From positions 21,552,493 through 21,616,492 of the forward strand of contig NC_052395.1 of the NCBI RefSeq assembly GCF_009389715.1: a stretch of DNA of 64,000 nt, written 5' to 3'. The notes beneath the pieces were generated by a model, which saw only the letters and a list, made by a program, of their open reading frames with translations, did no database searches and was not told where the DNA came from. Position 1 is the stretch's first letter, and each line of letters begins with the position of its first letter. The position numbers were made by a program, and so were the translations under genes. Source of the stretch: Phoenix dactylifera. Taxonomy: Eukaryota; Streptophyta; Magnoliopsida; Arecales; Arecaceae. Positions 2,593 to 56,040 of this stretch are shown piece after piece.

Positions 2593-3468
<876 letters not shown>

Positions 3469-3600
3469 CTATTAGATCGAGAGTTTTTTTCCAACAAGAG
3501 CTTCCTCGGAAACCAAGTCATCAAAAAGCAAGACAAACTCAGCAAGTGTAAATGAATTATCGGTTACAATAGTTGAAGGTCGATGACTATTAGATCGAGG

Positions 3601-4164
3601 TGGTAAAATTTTTTCATACTAGAGACAAACTATGAAAAGTTCTCGTTCTTTCAGTGTCTATGCATTCCTTTGAACTATCTCAAGTCCTAATCACAAGTTA
3701 GTAGTCCATTAGTGTAAATTAGTTATACAAGGTGTTTTGTATAATATTTTGAAAATAATAAAAAAAAACTAAAAATTCAAATTGTTGTTCATCCAAAAGA
3801 AGACAACAAAGCAGATCCTCATTTAAATCTTAAAATAGTGACCATGAGGGAGAACTAAAATTTGTTGCTAGTTTGGATTCACTAGCTTAAAAATTGAAGC
3901 AGAATATCCTACAAATAGGGAAAATGACCATTTCCAAGATTCCTATGCGTAAATGACCAACATTTCTCGGATGATTGGTTCATGTATGAAATAAATGACG
4001 ATCAATTGGGGAAGAGCTCGGATGGAGACGGTTGACGATGAAAGGTAATTGGCCCATGGTAAGATGTAACATGGTACCAACTTTCTTTCTGGAGGAAAAA
4101 AGTAGTGACTTTGGGAACTTCAGCAAATTGCAATATCTTATTTCCATATGTTGACAGTTTATAT
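3601..4164. other. Shared 3' flank of A-type kinase units, no gene
   Basis: AT-rich non-coding sequence that aligns with the downstream flanks of the other units (22029-22604, 37903-38480, 52499-53079). It ends with the target-site copy GTTTATAT (4157-4164) of the next element. No coding region was seen. Confidence 0.7.
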
Positions 4165-4865
4165 TAGGCGTGTAAATAGGTCAGGTCGGACTGGGTCATG
4201 AGTGACCCCGACCCAACTCGGTTCCATGTTCATGTCCTAATTTTAGGCCCAGACCCAACCCAATAGAAGATTGGGTCGGGTCGGGTCCATAGCTACAAGT
4301 TTTGACCCAATGGGTCATTCGGATACGGTCGAGTCCATATATAACCTAGTCCCAACCTAGTCGGATCAATTCCGGACCCATTCAACTTTTCTTTTTTGTC
4401 TGATCCCTACTCCTCTACTCCCCTTTCGATATCGGGCCCCTTCCGACCCCCGCCGCCCTCCTCCTCGATCCCGCCACCGCCACCTGCTTCCGACTCCCCC
4501 TCTCCCCCTCTCCTCCACCGTGGCTTCTCCCCCGCCAGCCTCCTCTTCTTGCTCTCCGACAACCCCGACGCCAAGTCCCTCCTTCTCAACCCCCTCCCAG
4601 TGCTCTCCTCCCCGCTCCACCTAGCATCGAGAGTAATGAAAACAGACTCCAAGATGCTGAAATGCCAAAGGCGCTCGTCAGCAGCATCGGCAGCCCAGAG
4701 GAGACCCCCGAGCAGGAACGCTAGATCGGGAGGCAGGGAGAACCTCGGCCTCGATTAGAGAGACCCTCGTCATGGTGTTGCCCATGATGATGAAGACACC
4801 ATAGAGCCTAACGTGCGCCGATCAGATGCCTCCTCCTCATCGTCTTCATCATTAGCTCGAATAAC
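4165..4865. mobile_element. Non-autonomous hAT-like element, right end deleted
   Basis: It starts TAGGCGTGTAAATAGGTC after the 8-bp sequence GTTTATAT, the same insertion site as the full copies at 38481 and 53080. A C-rich interior (4390-4760) includes a 120-residue open frame rich in Pro and Ser on +, matched by similar sequence in the other copies. The element breaks off near 4865, where it is fused to a B-type kinase exon, so the inverted right end and second target copy are gone. The open frame may be a captured host fragment; I do not recognise it. Confidence 0.7.
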
Positions 4866-4871
4866 ATCATT

Positions 4872-5307
4872 AGCAATATTCTTCTTGATAAATAGATGAA
4901 TCCCAAAAATCTCAGACTTTGGTATGGTAAGAATTTTTGGAGGAGATGAGACAGAAGTAACAAGAAGAGTAGTTGGCACATAGTAAGTTTGATTTACAAA
5001 AATGTCTGAGACCCATTATGTTTTCACTATAAATGCCCATGGTTAATTTTAATTATTTTGTTGGTGAAATCTAGTGGATACATGTCACCTGAGTATGCAA
5101 TGGATGACGTTTTCACGGTGAAATCCTATGTGTTCAGCTTCGGTGTTTTAGTTTTGGAGATCATTAGAGGAAAGAAAAATAGAGGAGTTTATGTCCACTC
5201 TTCTCACCAAAATCTTCTTGGACATGTAAGTGTGGATCAAATTATTTCATTTGTGGGAACCTCTTCCTCAAATTTTGACATTGAATGGAATTTTGTTAGG
5301 CCTGGAG
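4872..5307 (+). pseudogene. B-type receptor kinase relic (part of exon 5, exon 6)
   Basis: Exon 5 remains from the SNILLDK motif to its donor near 4983 and carries at least three lesions relative to the 11807 copy: an in-frame TAG at 4893-4895, an extra A in the NPKIS codons, and small losses before the VVGT end. Exon 6 (5075-5225, 151 bp) is open and encodes [17 protein letters not shown] and [19 protein letters not shown], which places it in lineage B. Only the first 8 bases of exon 7 (5300-5307) remain before an LTR begins at 5308. Left of 4872 it is fused to a truncated hAT-like element. Confidence 0.88.
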
Positions 5308-5991
5308 TGCCACAACCCAGATTCGGAGCATGATTTGTCGCATCCTAGATCTGGAGCATGAATGGCCGTGCTACCGTAGGGTATTGTCCACAATAACACG
5401 AAGCCCATAATAACAAATCATAGAAAAATAGTATTTGTCCAACTTTCATTGCAAACTAAATAGAAGGAAGTATAGAGCATCTAAAAACCAACATCAATGC
5501 CAAATCCATCATTAGCTATACACTATTATAACTCTTCTACAAATTGCCAAGCTTGCTAGTGCGAATTCTACGCCTGGCCCAATCTTTGCCCCTACTGATC
5601 TTTTTTTTCGGGGAGAAAAATAAAAACAGAGGTATATGAGAAATAGCTCAGTAAGTAAATCTTTCACTACTTTATCGGATCAAGCATAAGATTTTTCATG
5701 TCAATGCATCATTTAAGAAAACTAACAGATATTCCAAAATAAGTATTTCATAATACGGTATAATAAAACAAGTCATAAAACTAATTATGCATGTATAAAT
5801 AATTCATATTTTATTTTTAAAATAAATAAATAAATCATTCTTCTATCATTTAGCCATATTATAGTTCAAAATATTGCTCACAGATATTTGTACTATGGTC
5901 ACTTTATACCTATGATAGAGCCAGTGTTCGTAATCGATATAGATTCATGTTTGTATGCCAACTTTATATCCGTTGGCGGGGCCAGTGTTCG
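5308..5991. mobile_element. LTR fragment inserted in a kinase exon 7
   Basis: It begins TGCCACAACCCAG inside exon 7 and follows the order of the LTR that starts at 6810: a 'cacaata(g/a)cacgaagccc' block, then the 'ctcagtaagtaa' block near 5650, then a GGCGGGGCCAGTGTTCGT motif. It stops where a different LTR-like sequence starts at 5992. No coding potential was seen. Confidence 0.6.
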
Positions 5992-6380
5992 TGTTAGAAG
6001 TATGTCCTAGAAGCCAATATGGCTGACACATATTTGTAATCTGGAGTACAAATTTGCAATTTGACTCTTATCAATAAATAAGATTGGGCAATTTGTTTTT
6101 TATTCATGTTTGTATATGTCCATGAATCGTCCAAAAAATTAATAAATGATGATACATATTCTCAAGGAGTTGAGAATTTGAGGCATATGTCATTAGGTAT
6201 TAATTTCTAAATGCTCATGATCGATGGATCCATCACGAGGGACGGTGATTGATCCAATGAGATTAGTGCACAGATTACTTAGTCAGATGGATGAGTCTCG
6301 AGTCCACAGTGTAGAAACACTGGAGTGATTATGCAAGTACTTGTTAGAGAACAAGGTACTGAGCGTGACCAAAGAAAGTA
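5992..6380. mobile_element. Copia-type LTR-like fragment (uncertain)
   Basis: Starts TGTTAGAAGTATGTCCTAG, which resembles the beginnings of plant Copia LTRs, and is nested in the LTR fragment to its left. The right border is unclear. No open frame. Confidence 0.35.
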
Positions 6381-11190: not shown

Positions 11191-11806
11191 ATAATTATGA
11201 ATAGATTTCCCTTGTTCTTAACAAAAGAATCAGTTGTTCTGAAGCCAACGTTGGTAGATCATGTAACGACACCGGTCCCTAGCCAAAGCCTTCCTAATGT
11301 ACACTCGGTATGGGACTAAACATATGCCTATACATGTCCTCACGTACTCCTCACATTTGATTAAGTGTTGGTGTTCTTGTCAGTAAAAGGGTCTAAACAC
11401 AAAAGCATGACTGGGTCATAACTATCCTAGAACGACCGGTGATGCAATGTCCATTAGCCATGTATGCCATGAGTGCGGTTGACTTCAATACAATTTATGA
11501 TGACTCAAGATTTCATCCAGAAAAACTATCCAGGAGATTATTATTTGAGGTCCTTTATCTTGTATTAATATCCAAAACCTCCCCAGCACACTCCTAATAT
11601 GGGACCAAACACACATCTATGTGGATCCACTAAGTTCAAATATCAGCAATAAAGGTTGTAAACTAATTCAAAAGATATATTTGATTATGGATTTGATCCT
11701 GATCCCATACAATAGGGAAGGGATCTATATGATCATGAGTTTACTAATGTTTACTTCATAAAGATTTTGCTAATGTTTTTGGTATGTTGATTGTGTTATT
11801 TACTAG
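11191..11806. other. Intron remnant with short LTR-like pieces, no exon found
   Basis: No exon 1-3 of the kinase that follows is visible here. The words TGGGACTAAACATATGCC and TGGGACCAAACACACATC, with CCCAGCACACTCC, resemble TRIM-type LTRs such as the one at 14309. The last roughly 150 bases run into the exon 4 acceptor TTTACTAG at 11806 and should be the end of intron 3. Confidence 0.5.
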
Positions 11807-13440: not shown

Positions 13441-15250
13441 ACCTTTTTTTTTGGTAGCAGGGAAGCGAGCTCACTCATTACAAGGGAATAAAGGGGATTC
13501 CCCTTGCATCCACTCTGATAAAATAGGATGACATTCGAGGACAAGTCTTGAAACCAAACGTTTTCATCTTGCTCGATACCCGCAATATGGGCCGAACAAT
13601 CTGCTACGCGATTAGCTTCCTGAAGAACCTGTAGGCCGGAGAAGTTGGCCAATGTAGAACAGAGATGCTTGATATATTTCTCAATGCGGGATATTGTGAG
13701 TAAGAAAGAGCCGCCTTGAGCTGTGTTTGATTTCTTATTTTGGCCACACACATTCAGAATTAGAATCACACAATGGATAGCCTGAACTCACCGACCATCC
13801 TTTCTTGGCAATGACCTCTGCGGTATGAAGCCTGTTCTTCGATGCCAACCAAACAAATACTTTGATTTTCTCAGACAATGCCACTTTCCTAGTGACGCTA
13901 TAGTAATGGCAAAATAGACCACGGCTGTTAAAAATTTGTAATAGGAATCCGTGGTAAAGGATCCACTTTGAATAAGTTTTCATACTGGGTTATCAGCAAT
14001 CCTTGACGGTTTGATGTGGGCCAATAGGTCATGCAAGCTATCAAGCTGGGCCATCTGATATTTAGAAAGAGGTCCGAGCAGCTTAATGCTCCAACTGAGA
14101 TTTCTCAACTCCACTGAGAGGCTACTGAAATATTGATTTTAGTAGCACTAGAGAACATACTAGTTGTAACAACCCAGGATCTCACCCAAAATGGCTAGCC
14201 GGAAGGTATTGTTTGGGTTCCTTGATCCTGTATAAGTACCCAAGATCTACCCAGCGAATAACCGATATCGAACTAAACACACGCCCGCACGGGTCCTCAC
14301 ATAATTTATGCGAGGATCCGTGCGGGCGTGTGTTTAGTCCCACATCGGTTATTCGCTGGGTAGATCTTGGGTACTTATACAAGATCAAGGAACCCAATTA
14401 ATACCTTCCGGCTAGCCATTTTGGATCAGGTCCTGAGTTGTGATAAATGGTATCAGAGCGGACCCAGCCTATAACCTATGTGGACTAAAGGACATTGCAG
14501 CACGGATCCATTGGGGCTGACTACGGGCCAATCGTGGTGTTTGTGATTAGATTTGAATAGATTTGAACCCTTAGCCTGACGAGGACGTCAGGGCTTGAAC
14601 GAGGGGAATATGCGAGGACCCATGCGGGCGTGTGTTTAGTCCCACATCGGTTATTCACTGGGTAGATCTTGGATACTTATACAGGATCAAGGAACCCAAT
14701 TAATACCTTCCGGCTAGCCATTTTGGGTGAGGTCTTGAGTTGTGACACTAGTAAAAGGAAAGGGGCCAATCCAAGAGTTTTCCGAAAACCTGATATGATT
14801 AGCTTAACCCAATCGAAAACCTGTGTAATTCCACAATGCTGCGAGGTTCTTGCTGAATGCAACCATAGTTTCCATGCCCACTTAGCCAACAAAGCGCGGT
14901 TCAGGTTCCTAATATTGTTGATTCTAAAACCCTCTTCTTCCTTTGAGCGGCGAACGCTATTCCAACTCACAAGGTAATGAAATCCGCCGACACTGTCCTT
15001 TCCTTTCCAAAGAAAAACTTCCAATCTTGATCAATTCTGTTGACCGCCTATATCTAGGGTTTGAAGATGGACATGAGGTAGGAAGGGAATGCTGAGAGAA
15101 CGGAGTTGACAAGAGTGACTCTACCTCCCCAAGAGAGCAATCTCCCTTTTTATGCCGTAAGTCTGGTACTCATTTTCTCCAAGAGTGGCATCCAATATTG
15201 TTTTAGAATCTATTTATCGTACAGGGGTAAACCAATATGTGTGAATGGAA
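13441..15250 (-). pseudogene. L1-type LINE 3' region, split by a TRIM element
   Basis: Reading the minus strand from right to left, the pieces follow the order of a plant LINE ORF2: reverse-transcriptase tail (15240-15060), the FLWKGKDSVGGFH and NRALLAKWAWKLW segment (15024-14760), zinc-binding region KVFVWLASKNRLHTAEV (13880-13800), and an RNase H-like end with NRVADCSAHIAG (13640-13560). A run of T at 13443-13452 would be the poly(A) end. Stops and frame changes separate the pieces. Other relics of the same LINE occur at 24600, 41315-42440, 55680 and 57010. Confidence 0.75.
14165..14747 (+). mobile_element. Compound TRIM retroelement with three 137-bp LTRs
   Basis: A normal TRIM occupies 14309-14747: LTR 14309-14445, primer-binding site TGGTATCAGAGC at 14448-14459, a 165-bp internal region, a purine tract GAACGAGGGGAATA ending at 14610, and LTR 14611-14747. 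A third LTR of the same length lies inverted at 14165-14301, separated by 7 bases. The whole structure is flanked by one 5-bp duplication, CTAGT (14160-14164 and 14748-14752). It interrupts the LINE relic; the related LINE at 41880 lacks it. No protein is encoded. Confidence 0.9.
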
Positions 15251-15764: not shown

Positions 15765-16293
15765 AGTTAATTTTGATGGCTCTGTAATGGATGATAAGGC
15801 TGTAGTAGGTTATGCTATTCGTGTTCACAATGGTCGGTTGATATCAGCAGCAAACAAACTAGTTTGAAAAATCTCAGTATCTTATGCAGAGCTTCTTGCA
15901 GCATGGTATGGTATTCACACATCCATATACACTTATGAAGCTTTGCAGGTGTGGGCTGAAGGAGATTCATCTACTATTATCTCCTGGCTCAATTCATCTT
16001 ATTCCAAAGTGCAGGTTAACCTAGTTTTGAAGGATATTTGGCAGTGGAAGTCTATTGCTACAAATTTCCAAGCCTCGATCCTATGTGTTTCGGCAGCGAA
16101 TCAAGCAGCTGATTGGATTGCCGCTCAGTCAATCAGATCTCATGAGGTTTCATACCAGGACTATCTCTCAACTCCAGCAGGATCCACAATAAAATTCAGT
16201 TGGATTTCGAAGAAGAAAACAGCATCTCGGATTCACTATTTTTTGCAGAAGGTGTGGGGAAAGTTTCCAAGCGAAGACATTTGCTTCAATTAA
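15765..16293 (+). pseudogene. LINE RNase H domain relic on the + strand
   Basis: One frame encodes an RNase H-like fold with its acidic residues in order: NFDGS (Asp), YAELLAAW (Glu), EGDSSTIISW (Asp) and NQAADWIA (Asp). An in-frame TGA lies near 15866, between the first and second of these. It would end at 16291-16293. This is the RVT_3-type RNase H found at the end of plant LINE ORF2. It is on the opposite strand from the LINE at 13441-15250, so it comes from a separate insertion or an inversion. Confidence 0.72.
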
Positions 16294-28542: not shown

Positions 28543-30569
28543 ATGTCATCTTTTGAGGAAAGTCAGTTTGGCATTCCTCCTGTTTCTGAGGGAGAAGAAA
28601 CTAATCCCCAACCCCATGTTCCTAGTTCCTCTAGAACTAGTGAACCGAGTGAAGATCAAACCTCTTCTCGTAAGAGGACTAGTGCTGTATGGAATGAATT
28701 TGATAGAGTTATGGTTGATGGAGTCTGAAAAGCTAAATGTAAAAAATGTGCCAAACTTTATAGTTGTAGTAGTAGTGGGGGAACAGGGCATTTAAAAAGA
28801 TATCAAGAGAGTCATAGGATGCATGATTCTCATGCTCAAACTCAAAGTACCCTTAATATACAAGGGGGATTACTTGTAGGTAATTTTGCATATAATCATG
28901 AAAATCAAAGAAAAATACTTGTAAAATGGATAGTTAAGGATGAATTACCTTTTAGTTTATGTGAACCTTTTAATTTTGAAGAATATGTTCAATTAAACCT
29001 ACAACCTGCTTACAAAAGAACTAGTAGGCGTACATTTAGAAGAGTAGCTATGACTAACTTTTTAGCAATGAAACAAAGTTTAATTGAAACATTTTCTACT
29101 TTAAATGTAAAAATTTCATTAACTTCTGATATTTGGTCAGCATCTGTAGGTAGTAATTGTTTTATTGCCATTACTGCTCATTATATTGATAATGATTGGC
29201 AATTAAATAAACGTATTCTTGCTTTTCGTGCTTTTGATTTTCCACATTCTGGACAACAAATTTCAAATATCATTTATCAAACTGCATGTTCATATAATAT
29301 TAATGATAAAATTATGTCTATTACTTTTGATAATGCATCTAATAATAATTCTGCTGTTGCATTATTAAAAGACTCATTGCATCCCATGTTAGATGGAAAT
29401 TTATTGCATATTAGATGTGCATGTCATATCTTAAATCTTTCTGTTCAAGCTGGCATGGGCATGATTCAAGATGTGATTGGTAAAATTAGAAATGCAGTTT
29501 CTTTTATTCATGCTTCAAGATCAAGACTTCAAAAATTTAAGGAACTATGCATAAATCATGGTAAACGTTTTAAAAAATTTAAACTTGATGTAATTACTCG
29601 TTGGAACTCAACATATAGTATGATACATGATGCATACCCATATAAAAACTTATTAAGTGCATATATTAATGATCGTGGATTAGGCTTTACATTGACTGAA
29701 ACTGATTGGAATAAAGAAAAAATTTTGGAAGATTTTTTGCTTAGTTTTTATAATGCTACCAATGTTCTTTCTGGTATTTATTATCCAACTTCATGTTCAT
29801 TTTTACAACAAGCATATATAATTAGTCAAAAATTTTCAGAACATAGATATGATGATGTTTTAATGCCTATTATTGACCTAATGGAATCTAAATGGAATGA
29901 GTATTGGGACAAGATATGTCCTATGCATAACTTAGCTGCTGTATTTAATCCTAGAGTTAAATTAAATGGCGTGCTAATTTTACTTGATGCATACTGTGAA
30001 AATATGATTAAAGATCCTGAACCTGCTAAAAATGAGGTAAAACAACTTCTTTATGATATTTATGCTATATATGATGAAAAAATTCGTGGATCTAGAACAC
30101 AAATACAAACTTCTATTTCTTCTTCTAGTAGTTCTCGTTCGTCATCTATTTTTTCATTCATTGCACAGAGAAGACACACACATGCTTCAAGTTTATCTTC
30201 ATCTTCTTCATCTTTAAGTAGTGAACTAGAATTTTATTTACGAAATGATCTTCAGTCTGCATATGATGAAAATCAAATAGAGAATCTAGATGTATTATCT
30301 TGGTGGAAGAGTGTTAGAAATCAATATCCTGTTATGTCTGCAATTGCACGCGATATTTTAGCTGTGCCGATGTCCACGGAGCATCGGAATCCGCTTTTAG
30401 TGCAGGTCGGCGTGTTCTTGACGAAAAGAGAAGTAGGATGACGGGCGAAACGGTGGAGATGCTTCTCGGTTTCAAAGATTGGTTGGATGCTGAGGCAAGA
30501 CTTCAAGATAAAGGTGGACATAATACAACATCCTCTGATGATGATGATACAAATACTACTGAAGACTGA
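28543..30569 (+). pseudogene. hAT transposase (BED zinc finger, RICESLEEPER/Ac-like), two lesions
   Basis: The frame starts at ATG 28543. An in-frame TGA at 28726-28728 cuts it just before the BED finger cysteines (KCKKC), and the same frame then stays open to 30441. The catalytic core is readable: SLTSDIWSA, SITFDNASNN, CACHILNLSVQAG and VITRWNSTY. Near 30379 one base is missing relative to the family pattern, which shifts the frame just before the ASESAF segment (holding the third acidic catalytic residue); the original frame ends at 30567-30569. Both lesions would disable the protein unless read through. Codon use is AT-rich, unlike the surrounding element ends. Confidence 0.9.
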
Positions 30570-41314: not shown

Positions 41315-42440
41315 TTACAAAGGACAAGAGGAGAATGTGCAGAGAATAATAGAAGAAAGATAGATAGCAAGGCCGATTACATAGGCGTAGAAGATGTCCT
41401 CGACCTTTAGAAGAACAGCGTCATCGCAAGTTGATCCTAGGCTCATGCACATTCCGGCTGAATTTTTCTTTTCCTCCATGAAGACCAGAGAGCACGGAAG
41501 TTGGTCAGCGAAGGTGCATTTAAGGAAAAGGTGAGACGCGGATTCAAAGTTAGAACTACACAATGATCAGCATGAACTCACCGACCATCCTTTCCTGGCA
41601 ATGACCTCTCCTGTGTGAAGCCTGTTCTTCAATGCCAACTAAACAAATACTTTGATTTTCTCCGGCACTGCCACTTTTCAAGTGACTCTATAGTAATGTC
41701 AAAATAGACCACAGCTGTTAAGAAATTTGTAATAGGAATCCATGGTCATGCAAGCTGTCAAGCTGTGCCATCTGATACTGGAAAAGAGGACCGTGCAGCT
41801 TAATACTCCAACTGCGATTTCCTCCAACTCCACCGAGAGGCTACTGAAACGTTGACTTTAATAGCTCCAGAGAACATATCACCAAACAAGAGGCATAAAG
41901 GAAAGGGGCCAATCTAAGAATCTTCACAAAATCTGATATGATTGCCTTTTTTCCCAATCAGAAACTGGTGCAATTCCAAAATGCTGCGAGGTCCTTGTTG
42001 AATGCGACAACAGTTTCCACGCCCACTTAGCCAACAGAGCAAGATTCATGTGACTAATATAGTTGATTCTAAGACCTCCTTCCTTCGGCAAATGCTATCC
42101 CACCTCACTAGGCAATGAAATCCGCTGACACTGTCTTTTCCTTTCCAAAGAAAAGCTCTTCTCGTCAGAACAATTCTATCGACCACCCATCTAGATTCTA
42201 GAGGGTTTGAAGATGGACATGAGGCAGGAAGGGAATGCTGAGAGAATGGAGTTGACAAGAGTGATTCTTCCTCCCCAAGAGAGCAGTCTCCCGTTTCGTG
42301 TCGTAAGTCTAGTACTCATCTTCTCCAAGAGTGGCATCCAACATTGTTTCAGGTCCTTGTTATAATATACGGGCAACCAAGATATGTGAATGGAGGGAGC
42401 TGGTCGTAATATATTAGAACTACTATAACCATCTAGCAAT
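41315..42440 (-). pseudogene. LINE ORF2 3' region relic
   Basis: Minus strand, in order: reverse-transcriptase tail with LEKMSTRLTTRNGRLLSWGG and LVNSILSAFPS (42439-42191); AFLWKGKDSVSGFH (42180-42100); the segment related to RNLNRALLAKWAWK (42050-41990); KVFVWLALKNRLHTGEV-like zinc-binding sequence (41650-41580); and ESASHLFLKCTFADQLP (41563-41480). Several frame changes separate these. It lacks the TRIM found in the 13441 relic and so serves as its empty site. Confidence 0.75.
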
Positions 42441-46026: not shown

Positions 46027-46892
46027 GGGTGGTTCTATATACACCCCCCCTATTGCTCAGGACACCCCCCAAAAATTAAAAAAAAATTAAATACTCTCTA
46101 CACCCCCCCATTTGCTAAGGACACCCCTAAAAAATTAAAAATTCCTAAATTACCCCCCACCCTTCCCACCCCCTCACCTAAATTGCTCTCTACACCCCCC
46201 AAACCCCCCCCACCCCGCTCTTCCCCTCCAAAACACCCGCCGGCTTCTCCCTTCCGCCCAAAAAACCTCGCCTCAAGCACCTCCCCGGCCATCTCCCAAG
46301 CAACGAGCACCTCGCCGGCGGAGGAGGAGGAGGGAGGCGGAGGAGGAGGACGGGGAGGCGGAGGAGGAGGACGGGGAGGCGGGGGGAGGCGGAGGGGGAG
46401 GTGGGGGATGGGGAGGAGGAGGAAGGAGGACGGGGAGGTGGGGGAAGAGGAGTGAGAGGAGGTGGCGGAGGAGGAGGGGGGAGGCGGAGGAGGAGGACGG
46501 GGAGGTGGAGGGGGAGGTGGAGGGGGAGGACGGGGAGGTGGAGGGGAGGAGGGGGGGGAGGTGGGGGATGGGGAGGAGGAGGAAGGAGGACGGGGAGGTG
46601 GGGGATGGGGAGGAGGAGGAAGGAGGACGGGGAGGTGGGGGATGGGGAGGAGGAGGAAGGAGGACGGGGAGGTGGGGGAAGAGGAGTGAGAGGAGGTGGC
46701 GGAGGAGGACGGGGAGGTGGAGGGGAGGACGGGGAGGTGGGGGATGGGGAGGAGGAGGAAGGAGGAAGGGGGGGTGTACTGAGAAAATTTCAAGGGCAAT
46801 ATGGTAATTACACTAAAGGTTAGTTTGGGTATTTTTTTTTTGGTTTTTGGGGGGTGTCCTGAGCAATAGGGGGGGTGTATATAGAACTACCC
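46027..46892. mobile_element. Mutator-like MITE with 44-bp inverted ends and 9-bp target duplication
   Basis: Left end GGGTGGTTCTATATACACCC; the right end is its inverted copy over 44 bases with a single mismatch (GGGTAG). GAGAATAAG flanks both sides (46018-46026 and 46893-46901), a 9-bp duplication as made by Mutator-like elements. Part of the terminal sequence is repeated once more inside the left end (46095-46130). The interior 46310-46780 is a purine-rich minisatellite. No transposase. Long Pro- or Gly-rich frames here are by-products. Confidence 0.92.
46310..46780. repeat. Purine-rich minisatellite inside the Mutator-like MITE
   Basis: Repeats of GGAGGTGGGGGATGGGGAGG and GAGGAGGAAGGAGGACGG in units of about 36-39 bp with variants. 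The + strand is almost free of pyrimidines over roughly 450 bases. Confidence 0.88.
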
Positions 46893-55680: not shown

Positions 55681-56040
55681 TAAAGGATCAACTTTGAGTA
55701 CGTTTCCATACTGGGGCATCAGCAATCCTTGACGGCAGGATGTGGGCCAACAGGTCATGCAAGCTGTCAAGCTGTGCCATCTGATACTGGGAAAGAGGAC
55801 CGTGCAGCTTAAAACTCCAACTGCGATTTTCTCCAACTCCACTGAGAGGCTACTGAAACGTTGACTTTAATAGCTCCAGAGAACGTATCACCAAACAAGA
55901 GGCATAAAGGAAAGGGGCCAACCTAAGAATCTTCACAAAATCTGATATGATTGCCTTCTTTCCCAATCAGAAACTGGTGCAATTCCAAAATGCTGCGAGG
56001 TCCTTGTTGAATGCGACAACAATGAAATCCGCTGACAGAG
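55681..56040 (-). pseudogene. LINE relic, left part
   Basis: Aligns with 13960-14160 and 41800-42010 of the other relics (non-frame-keeping, minus strand). It stops near 56040 and the LINE resumes at 57010, so 970 bases of foreign sequence sit in between. Confidence 0.65.

Follow-up and report, generated by a model that had tools for sequence, protein, structure and literature searches.

Complex LTR elements have, as far as the excerpts available to us show, so far been explained by post-insertion recombination or by direct-orientation template switching. Sabot and Schulman (2007), in the part of the paper available, attributed complex elements of the Triticeae to aberrant switching between two packaged RNA templates (PMC1950507). 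The available text on Cassandra and Wukong describes tandem arrays, ascribed to recombination or template switching, and in Wukong the LTRs usually have the same orientation (PMC7215508, PMC4528315). The accessible sections of Gao et al. (2016) record tandem TRIM arrays in 35 of 43 genomes, a table total of 9 for date palm and, in maize, a Zma-SMART array "with two inverted TRIMs" and the TSD CTTCA; the arrays of their Fig. 2 were verified by PCR and sequencing (PMC4717578). The Fig. 2C legend does not give the relative arrangement of the maize TRIMs (head-to-head or tail-to-tail), and the sections accessible describe neither a junction nor a mechanism for them (PMC4717578). In an Arabidopsis study of EVD, again from the text available, LTR hairpins were sought and one nested antisense insertion was found (PMC11624286). 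Within the literature searched, and as far as the retrieved passages show, Gao et al. (2016) alone deal directly with inverted TRIMs, and no description of a head-to-head bias or of U3-U3 junctions was found. An inverted TRIM pair is already known from maize, and the head-to-head bias is the interesting part of the family described here.

The element under study lies in a window of 64,000 nucleotides of date palm (Phoenix dactylifera) DNA (NC_052395.1, positions 21,552,493 to 21,616,492 of the forward strand), the whole stretch that was analysed. It probably represents two cDNAs of a plant TRIM family that were joined head-to-head, at their sense-5′ (U3) ends, and integrated once as a compound.

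Results

The compound occupies 14165–14747 of the window. It starts with a 137-bp LTR in inverted orientation (A), which a 7-nt spacer separates from a complete TRIM of 439 bp (LTR B, internal region and LTR C). A first-pass annotation had described three 137-bp LTRs, the first one inverted and joined to a complete TRIM, and both the arrangement (A, B and C have 137 nt each, with A reversed) and the span it gave proved exact, the target duplications themselves lying outside that span. LTR A (14165–14301, minus strand) has its U5/CA end on the left outer side and LTR C (14611–14747, plus strand), the 3′ LTR, has its own U5/CA end on the right outer side. The U3 ends of A and B face each other across the junction TAATTTA (14302–14308), made up of TA beside each U3 end plus ATT. 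LTR B (14309–14445, plus strand), the 5′ LTR of the complete TRIM, has TA instead of CA as its terminal dinucleotide. The internal region (14446–14610, plus strand, 165 nt) differs at 9–10 positions from the nearest of 71 other copies. Its primer-binding site, TGGTATCAGAGC (14448–14459, plus strand), starts 2 nt beyond the LTR and is presumably a match to the initiator-Met tRNA, and a polypurine-tract-like stretch, GAACGAGGGGAA (14597–14608, plus strand), is followed by TA and U3.

The internal region also contains, just past the primer-binding site, an inverted relative of LTR positions 6–53 (14462–14509, minus strand), which agrees with 14314–14361 of LTR B at 79.6% over 49 aligned positions. 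Across 72 internal copies the local score of this LTR-like segment had a median of 27 (16–39), compared with a mean of 12.5 and a maximum of 21 for shuffled sequence, and the segment could allow U3 to pair with the 5′ portion of the RNA. As a place for foldback priming this repeat (internal 17–64 against LTR 6–53) was dropped by eye, since the junctions are out of that register.

The outer ends of the compound are inverted repeats of 137 nt that are 91% complementary. The hairpin pointed out in the first-pass annotation is real, although calling it near-perfect was generous, as A matches B at 123 of 137 positions. The A–B stretch was predicted to fold with an MFE of −227.1 kcal/mol, whereas shuffled sequences averaged −74.6 (z −31.9). 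An Rfam scan of 13900–15000 at E up to 1 gave 8 matches, 5S rRNA not among them; the microRNA matches (mir-5880 and others) were all under gathering scores and were taken as the hairpin only. Stop-to-stop frames of at least 60 aa that overlap the element reach at most 117 aa, the longer ones extending into the flanks, and no Pfam match was obtained for 14677–15030, the sole frame scanned among them.

The compound is bordered by CTAGT on both sides (14160–14164 and 14748–14752, 5 nt each), exact and at zero offset, so that a single duplication encloses all three LTRs as had been claimed. Neither part has a duplication of its own: the 5 nt flanking LTR A read CTAGT and TAATT, and those flanking the B–C TRIM read ATTTA and CTAGT. 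In a chance control with nine head-to-head compounds of the family, the window copy included, the flanks matched in 8 of 9 same-locus pairs and in 0 of 72 cross-locus pairs. Two paralogous segments without the element, in which the left and right flanks lie close together, were found within the window, and both have the same 18 nt, TCACCAAACAAGAGGCAT, between the flanks (41879–41896 and 55888–55905). Since 18 nt stand in the paralogous sites compared with six (CTAGTA) in the window, the pre-insertion letters are not directly readable. Integration of the window compound as one unit, which was among the origins first suggested for it, is supported by the one exact outer duplication, the lack of inner ones, the two element-free paralogs and the similar compounds with single duplications of their own that are described below.

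The first-pass annotation had offered a second integration into the very end of the first element as the other possible origin. In such a scheme a first TRIM would have been reduced to solo LTR A and a second TRIM would have inserted exactly at its end. Comparison of the three LTRs, which had been proposed as a check, is in keeping with this idea, as A differs from B and C at 14 and 13 of 137 sites and B from C at 9, and the diagnostic states of A are different as well. The duplication predicted around the second element is absent, however; neither part has a duplication around it, and the 5 nt beside B are ATTTA and not CTAGT. The arrangement with a single outer duplication also recurs at loci with different flanks. 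The model of two insertions was rejected because the inner duplications are missing, and we consider it very unlikely.

The templates of the two arms were compared through diagnostic LTR positions. B and C both carry C at position 3, T at position 90 and G at position 134; A has the family states there. Among 118 comparison LTRs, taken from L009 and L011–L047 only, these three letters were seen in 0 of 109, 0 of 118 and 0 of 111 LTRs with a letter at the respective position. B and C thus share three states missing from A, which points to different templates or to later conversion between B and C. Arms were further compared by setting the mean opposite-strand difference against the mean difference to other loci. 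The values for the window were 0.099 and 0.073. The arms of L011 (0.063 vs 0.068), L012 (0.072 vs 0.069) and L013 (0.091 vs 0.068) showed a mutual closeness that was absent or hardly above that to other loci, values of 0.041 vs 0.050 and 0.044 vs 0.058 were obtained for L009 and L014, and closer arms were found at L015 (0.016 vs 0.045) and L016 (0.017 vs 0.039).

The mutually close arms of L015 and L016 would suit self-foldback of a single cDNA, in which the 3′ end of the minus strand folded back and was extended on its own LTR as template. The window junction, located at the U3 end with the arms 1 nt apart, and the short tip inversions around TA at L083 and L086 are also compatible with such an event. 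Because A lacks the B/C states, the arms in the window would not be one molecule unless B and C were converted later, and self-copying would not come to a halt precisely where the U5 of one LTR ends. Simple self-foldback was disfavoured for the window copy on account of the states common to B and C, and it appears quite improbable.

The family was surveyed in the date palm genome (773,078,369 bases, 2391 contigs). With the compound as query the best 40 of 5432 candidates were scored, and loci were taken from among the matches listed, which were part of a total of 196. The compound query contains an inverted LTR and favours head-to-head loci, so a sample obtained with the internal region only was added, for which the best 40 of 3441 candidates were scored; the counts given below are not from random samples. 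Seventy loci were annotated automatically, with units more than 40 nt apart left unchained, and some of them were chosen through a match to the U5-U3 pattern. Outside the 70 stand L010 (the same locus as L009), L048, L080 and L081 (refetches), L002–L008 (which overlap later ones) and L082–L087 (later additions via the U3-U3 pattern).

Among the matches listed, the 70 annotated loci contained 32 plain LTR-internal-LTR units, same-strand arrays with more than two LTRs at 24 loci, and a head-to-head strand change at 12 loci (L001, L009, L011–L016, L051, L060, L063 and L077), with no tail-to-tail change at any of the 70. With the window set aside, the internal-only sample, which has no LTR in its query and is neutral to orientation, gave head-to-head changes at 5 of 38 loci and tail-to-tail changes at 0 of 38, again among the matches listed. 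Relatives with 5-nt duplications include L021 (TCATC), L023 (TTGCC), L025 (GGCTG) and L027 (TCAAC), and several same-strand arrays have no duplication (for example L019, L031, L036 and L046). The same-strand pairs L019/L031, L052/L053 and L078/L079 look duplicated and were not merged in the counts. About 115 nt beyond the L076 array, and unchained to it under the 40-nt limit, lies a lone opposite-strand LTR fragment. A search for relatives outside the genome with one exact 21-mer gave 0 matches in the viral contigs and genome contigs collections, and a distant search of plasmids gave no match.

It had been reasoned beforehand that ordinary two-LTR copies, together with a duplication belonging to the inverted LTR alone, would point to two separate events. 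Many copies are indeed ordinary; the inverted LTR has no such duplication. The genome search suggested at the same time did recover the arrangement elsewhere, with one TRIM and one inverted LTR as in the window at L011 (CTCCT) and L082/L085 (CATAC).

Fifteen head-to-head loci were counted as independent, the pairs L013/L063, L082/L085, L051/L080 and L083/L087 being counted once each; L063 and L013 have a common right flank (91%), and L085 and L082 have both flanks in common, in a comparison of flanks that took in neither L051 nor L077. An exact 5-nt outer duplication is present at 10 of the 15. It is exact at zero offset in the window (L001, CTAGT) and at L011 (CTCCT), L012 (TGGTC), L013 (TATAT, weak because it lies within a TA repeat), L014 (AAGAG), L015 (GTTTT), L016 (ATGCA) and L060 (TTACC), and exact also at L082 with its duplicate L085 (CATAC) and at L087, a compound of 3,625 bp (GATGG). 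No exact outer duplication was found at the other 5 of 15 (L009, L051/L080, L077, L084 and L086), among which an outer end is truncated or diverged only at L051 and L084. The L084 copy (G000:C14:4578500-4581500) is ∼70% identical and is an LTR head-to-head pair with the spacer TAAG.

The compounds vary in composition. The window copy has one internal region with three LTRs, L012 is a four-LTR array with one inverted LTR (TGGTC), two TRIMs, each with an internal region, are present at L009, L013 and L060, and more than one internal region is found in relatives such as L015, L016, L060 and L087. U5 forms both outer ends in all nine compounds tested for duplications (L001, L009, L011–L016 and L060) and in L082. 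The exception is L087 (G000:C9:4755500-4763500, 2727–6351), whose outer ends are U3 and U5 and not two U5, and in which the strand order +, −, + is contained within one GATGG duplication. One of its junctions is of the +/−, or tail-to-tail, type and leads from AATGGTATCA to inverted internal sequence, which makes the head-to-head bias strong but not absolute.

The 3.6-kb L087, where head-to-head and tail-to-tail strand changes are enclosed by the one GATGG duplication, raises an alternative: a single ordinary or tandem insertion could have been rearranged in place by inversion, gene conversion or unequal exchange, with the original duplication kept. In-place change inside family arrays such as L087 is possible, and L087 and the several same-strand arrays without duplication (L019, L031, L036 and L046) together indicate that such change probably occurs in this TRIM family. 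An internal inversion would keep an outer U3, as in L087, whereas the nine tested compounds have two outer U5 ends, and in the window A is without the states common to B and C. As an explanation of the window compound, in-place rearrangement is therefore regarded as unlikely.

Hairpins are difficult to assemble, and some loci have a second copy on another contig (L009/L010 and L082/L085), as might be expected of an assembly artefact or a misjoined haplotype. The units are bordered by exact duplications at several loci whose flanks differ, and duplicated contigs have the same or nearly the same junctions (CATTGG at L082, CATCGG at L085), which leaves such an artefact with hardly any likelihood.

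The junctions were then considered against the ordinary boundaries of the family, where TA precedes U3 at each of the 75 boundaries counted and U5 is followed by AATGGTATCAGAGC at 55 of 62. In genome-wide exact pattern searches, two facing U3 tips occurred at 6 places, with the spacers TAATTTA, CATTGG, TA, TAAG, CATCGG and TA, two of which (CATTGG and CATCGG) belong to the duplicates L082/L085; the reversed-pattern control gave 0 genome-wide. A U5-U5 pattern gave 0 places genome-wide with a pattern lacking ambiguity codes and stricter than that for U3-U3. The U5-U3 pattern occurred at 10 places and its control at 0 genome-wide, and the junction was AATA at 4 of the 10, two of which, L078 and L079, seem to be a single locus present in duplicate. 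AATA reads as if full cDNA ends had been joined, AA coming from the U5 side and TA from the U3 side.

At the head-to-head junctions found earlier, with L077 set aside, TA is retained at 5 of 8 U3 ends: both ends in L001 and one each in L009 (where it continues into the purine tract), L011 and L015. It is not retained at L014, L060 and L063. L077 was excluded from this tally for its U5-AATA-U3 junction beside a folded-back LTR fragment. Among the loci added later, L083 and L086 have TA at both U3 ends and as the whole spacer, L084 (spacer TAAG) has it at one of its two U3 ends, and L082 (spacer CATTGG) has it at neither end. In L083 and L086 a short stretch of the U3 tip is inverted around TA, the left arm departing from the tip after 10–11 nt, and the template changes at a shared GGATC or GGACCC, a pattern that looks like template switching. 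Other arms begin within the LTR, at internal position ∼43 or at the primer-binding site; in one case, L016, the right arm begins at the primer-binding site after a run of T. The left arms of L015 and L016, which have different flanks, end at the same internal position (GGGGACA, ∼43), perhaps reflecting a pause or a second purine-tract start. Since the junctions differ between loci, they represent separate events and do not go back to the spread of a single mobile compound.

From 2524 to 64000 the window is a tandem lectin receptor kinase array with units of ∼13–16 kb, and the domains B_lectin, S_locus_glycop, PAN_2 and kinase were detected in two frames scanned. Other features of the window are a diverged LTR relative at 11503–11614 (minus strand, ∼70% identical over 112 nt), a reverse-transcriptase-like (RVT_3) fragment near the insertion at 15868–16293 (plus strand, E 5e-5), a hAT transposase-like frame at 28729–30441 (plus strand), open over 570 aa, and a simple-repeat-like region at 46098–46886 with long frames on both strands.

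Discussion

The single insertion of the compound and the distinct states of A are well shown. The remainder of the origin that we favour, in which two cDNAs were joined at their U3 ends before integration, is inferred from the anatomy and from the established course of LTR-retrotransposon replication. Two different, co-packaged RNAs of the TRIM family would be copied into cDNA, and the 3′ end of a minus strand, at or close to U3, would become joined to a second minus strand, either by template switching with priming or by end joining. The joined product would have two intact U5 ends on the outside, and an integrase acting in trans, supplied by an autonomous element, would insert it like an ordinary element, leaving one 5-nt duplication. 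The single LTR of the left arm may be what was left after a full arm collapsed by LTR-LTR exchange, or a short cDNA may have been joined from the start. The junction tests do not separate the template-switching (polymerase) route from the ligase route; the AATA junctions may represent the joining of finished ends, and both routes may act.

A more tentative extension of this origin, possible but short of probable, is that reverse transcription in this family regularly yields head-to-head dimers as a minor product and that the resulting two-U5 molecule is what integrates. Minus-strand 3′ ends, some of them halted at the primer-binding site with the second strand transfer still to come, would prime on another minus strand or be joined to it. 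In retroviral end processing two bases are removed from the end. A U3 end processed in this way could account for the head-to-head bias, as its 5′ overhang TA is self-complementary and the U5 overhang TT is not; exactly TA stands between the U3 tips at 2 of the 6 U3-U3 places.

Recurrent inverted compounds that are nearly always head-to-head, mostly with two outer U5 ends, make a joining step of cDNA readable junction by junction. The compounds are natural inverted repeats near genes, in the window those of a receptor-kinase array. Inverted repeats are, in the text available, the type of structure that silenced Mutator in maize (PMC11624286). If head-to-head dimers are a regular product, each insertion would at once provide a hairpin locus directed against the family it came from.

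The window compound resembles the maize Zma-SMART array in having opposite orientations inside one target duplication and, going by the accessible description, differs from its two inverted TRIMs in that one arm is a single LTR and only one internal region is present (PMC4717578). With the Triticeae complex elements it shares the extra LTR and the one 5-bp duplication; in the sections available those elements have three LTRs, two complete cores and a shared internal LTR in direct orientation, whereas the extra LTR of the window compound is inverted (PMC1950507). Like Cassandra and Wukong, as described in the excerpts available, it belongs to a TRIM family with more than two LTRs per element (PMC7215508, PMC4528315). 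Unlike Cassandra, the window element has no 5S rRNA-like sequence in the Rfam scan. Inverted-repeat outer ends and a short target duplication are features in common with MITEs and foldback transposons, from which the compound is set apart by relatives that are direct-LTR elements with a primer-binding site and a purine tract. The 2-LTR circles of LTR elements contain U5-U3 junctions. The U5-U3 junctions of the date palm family are like them in that AATA, with both two-base ends kept, is found at 4 of 10 places, and unlike them in that they sit inside integrated elements.
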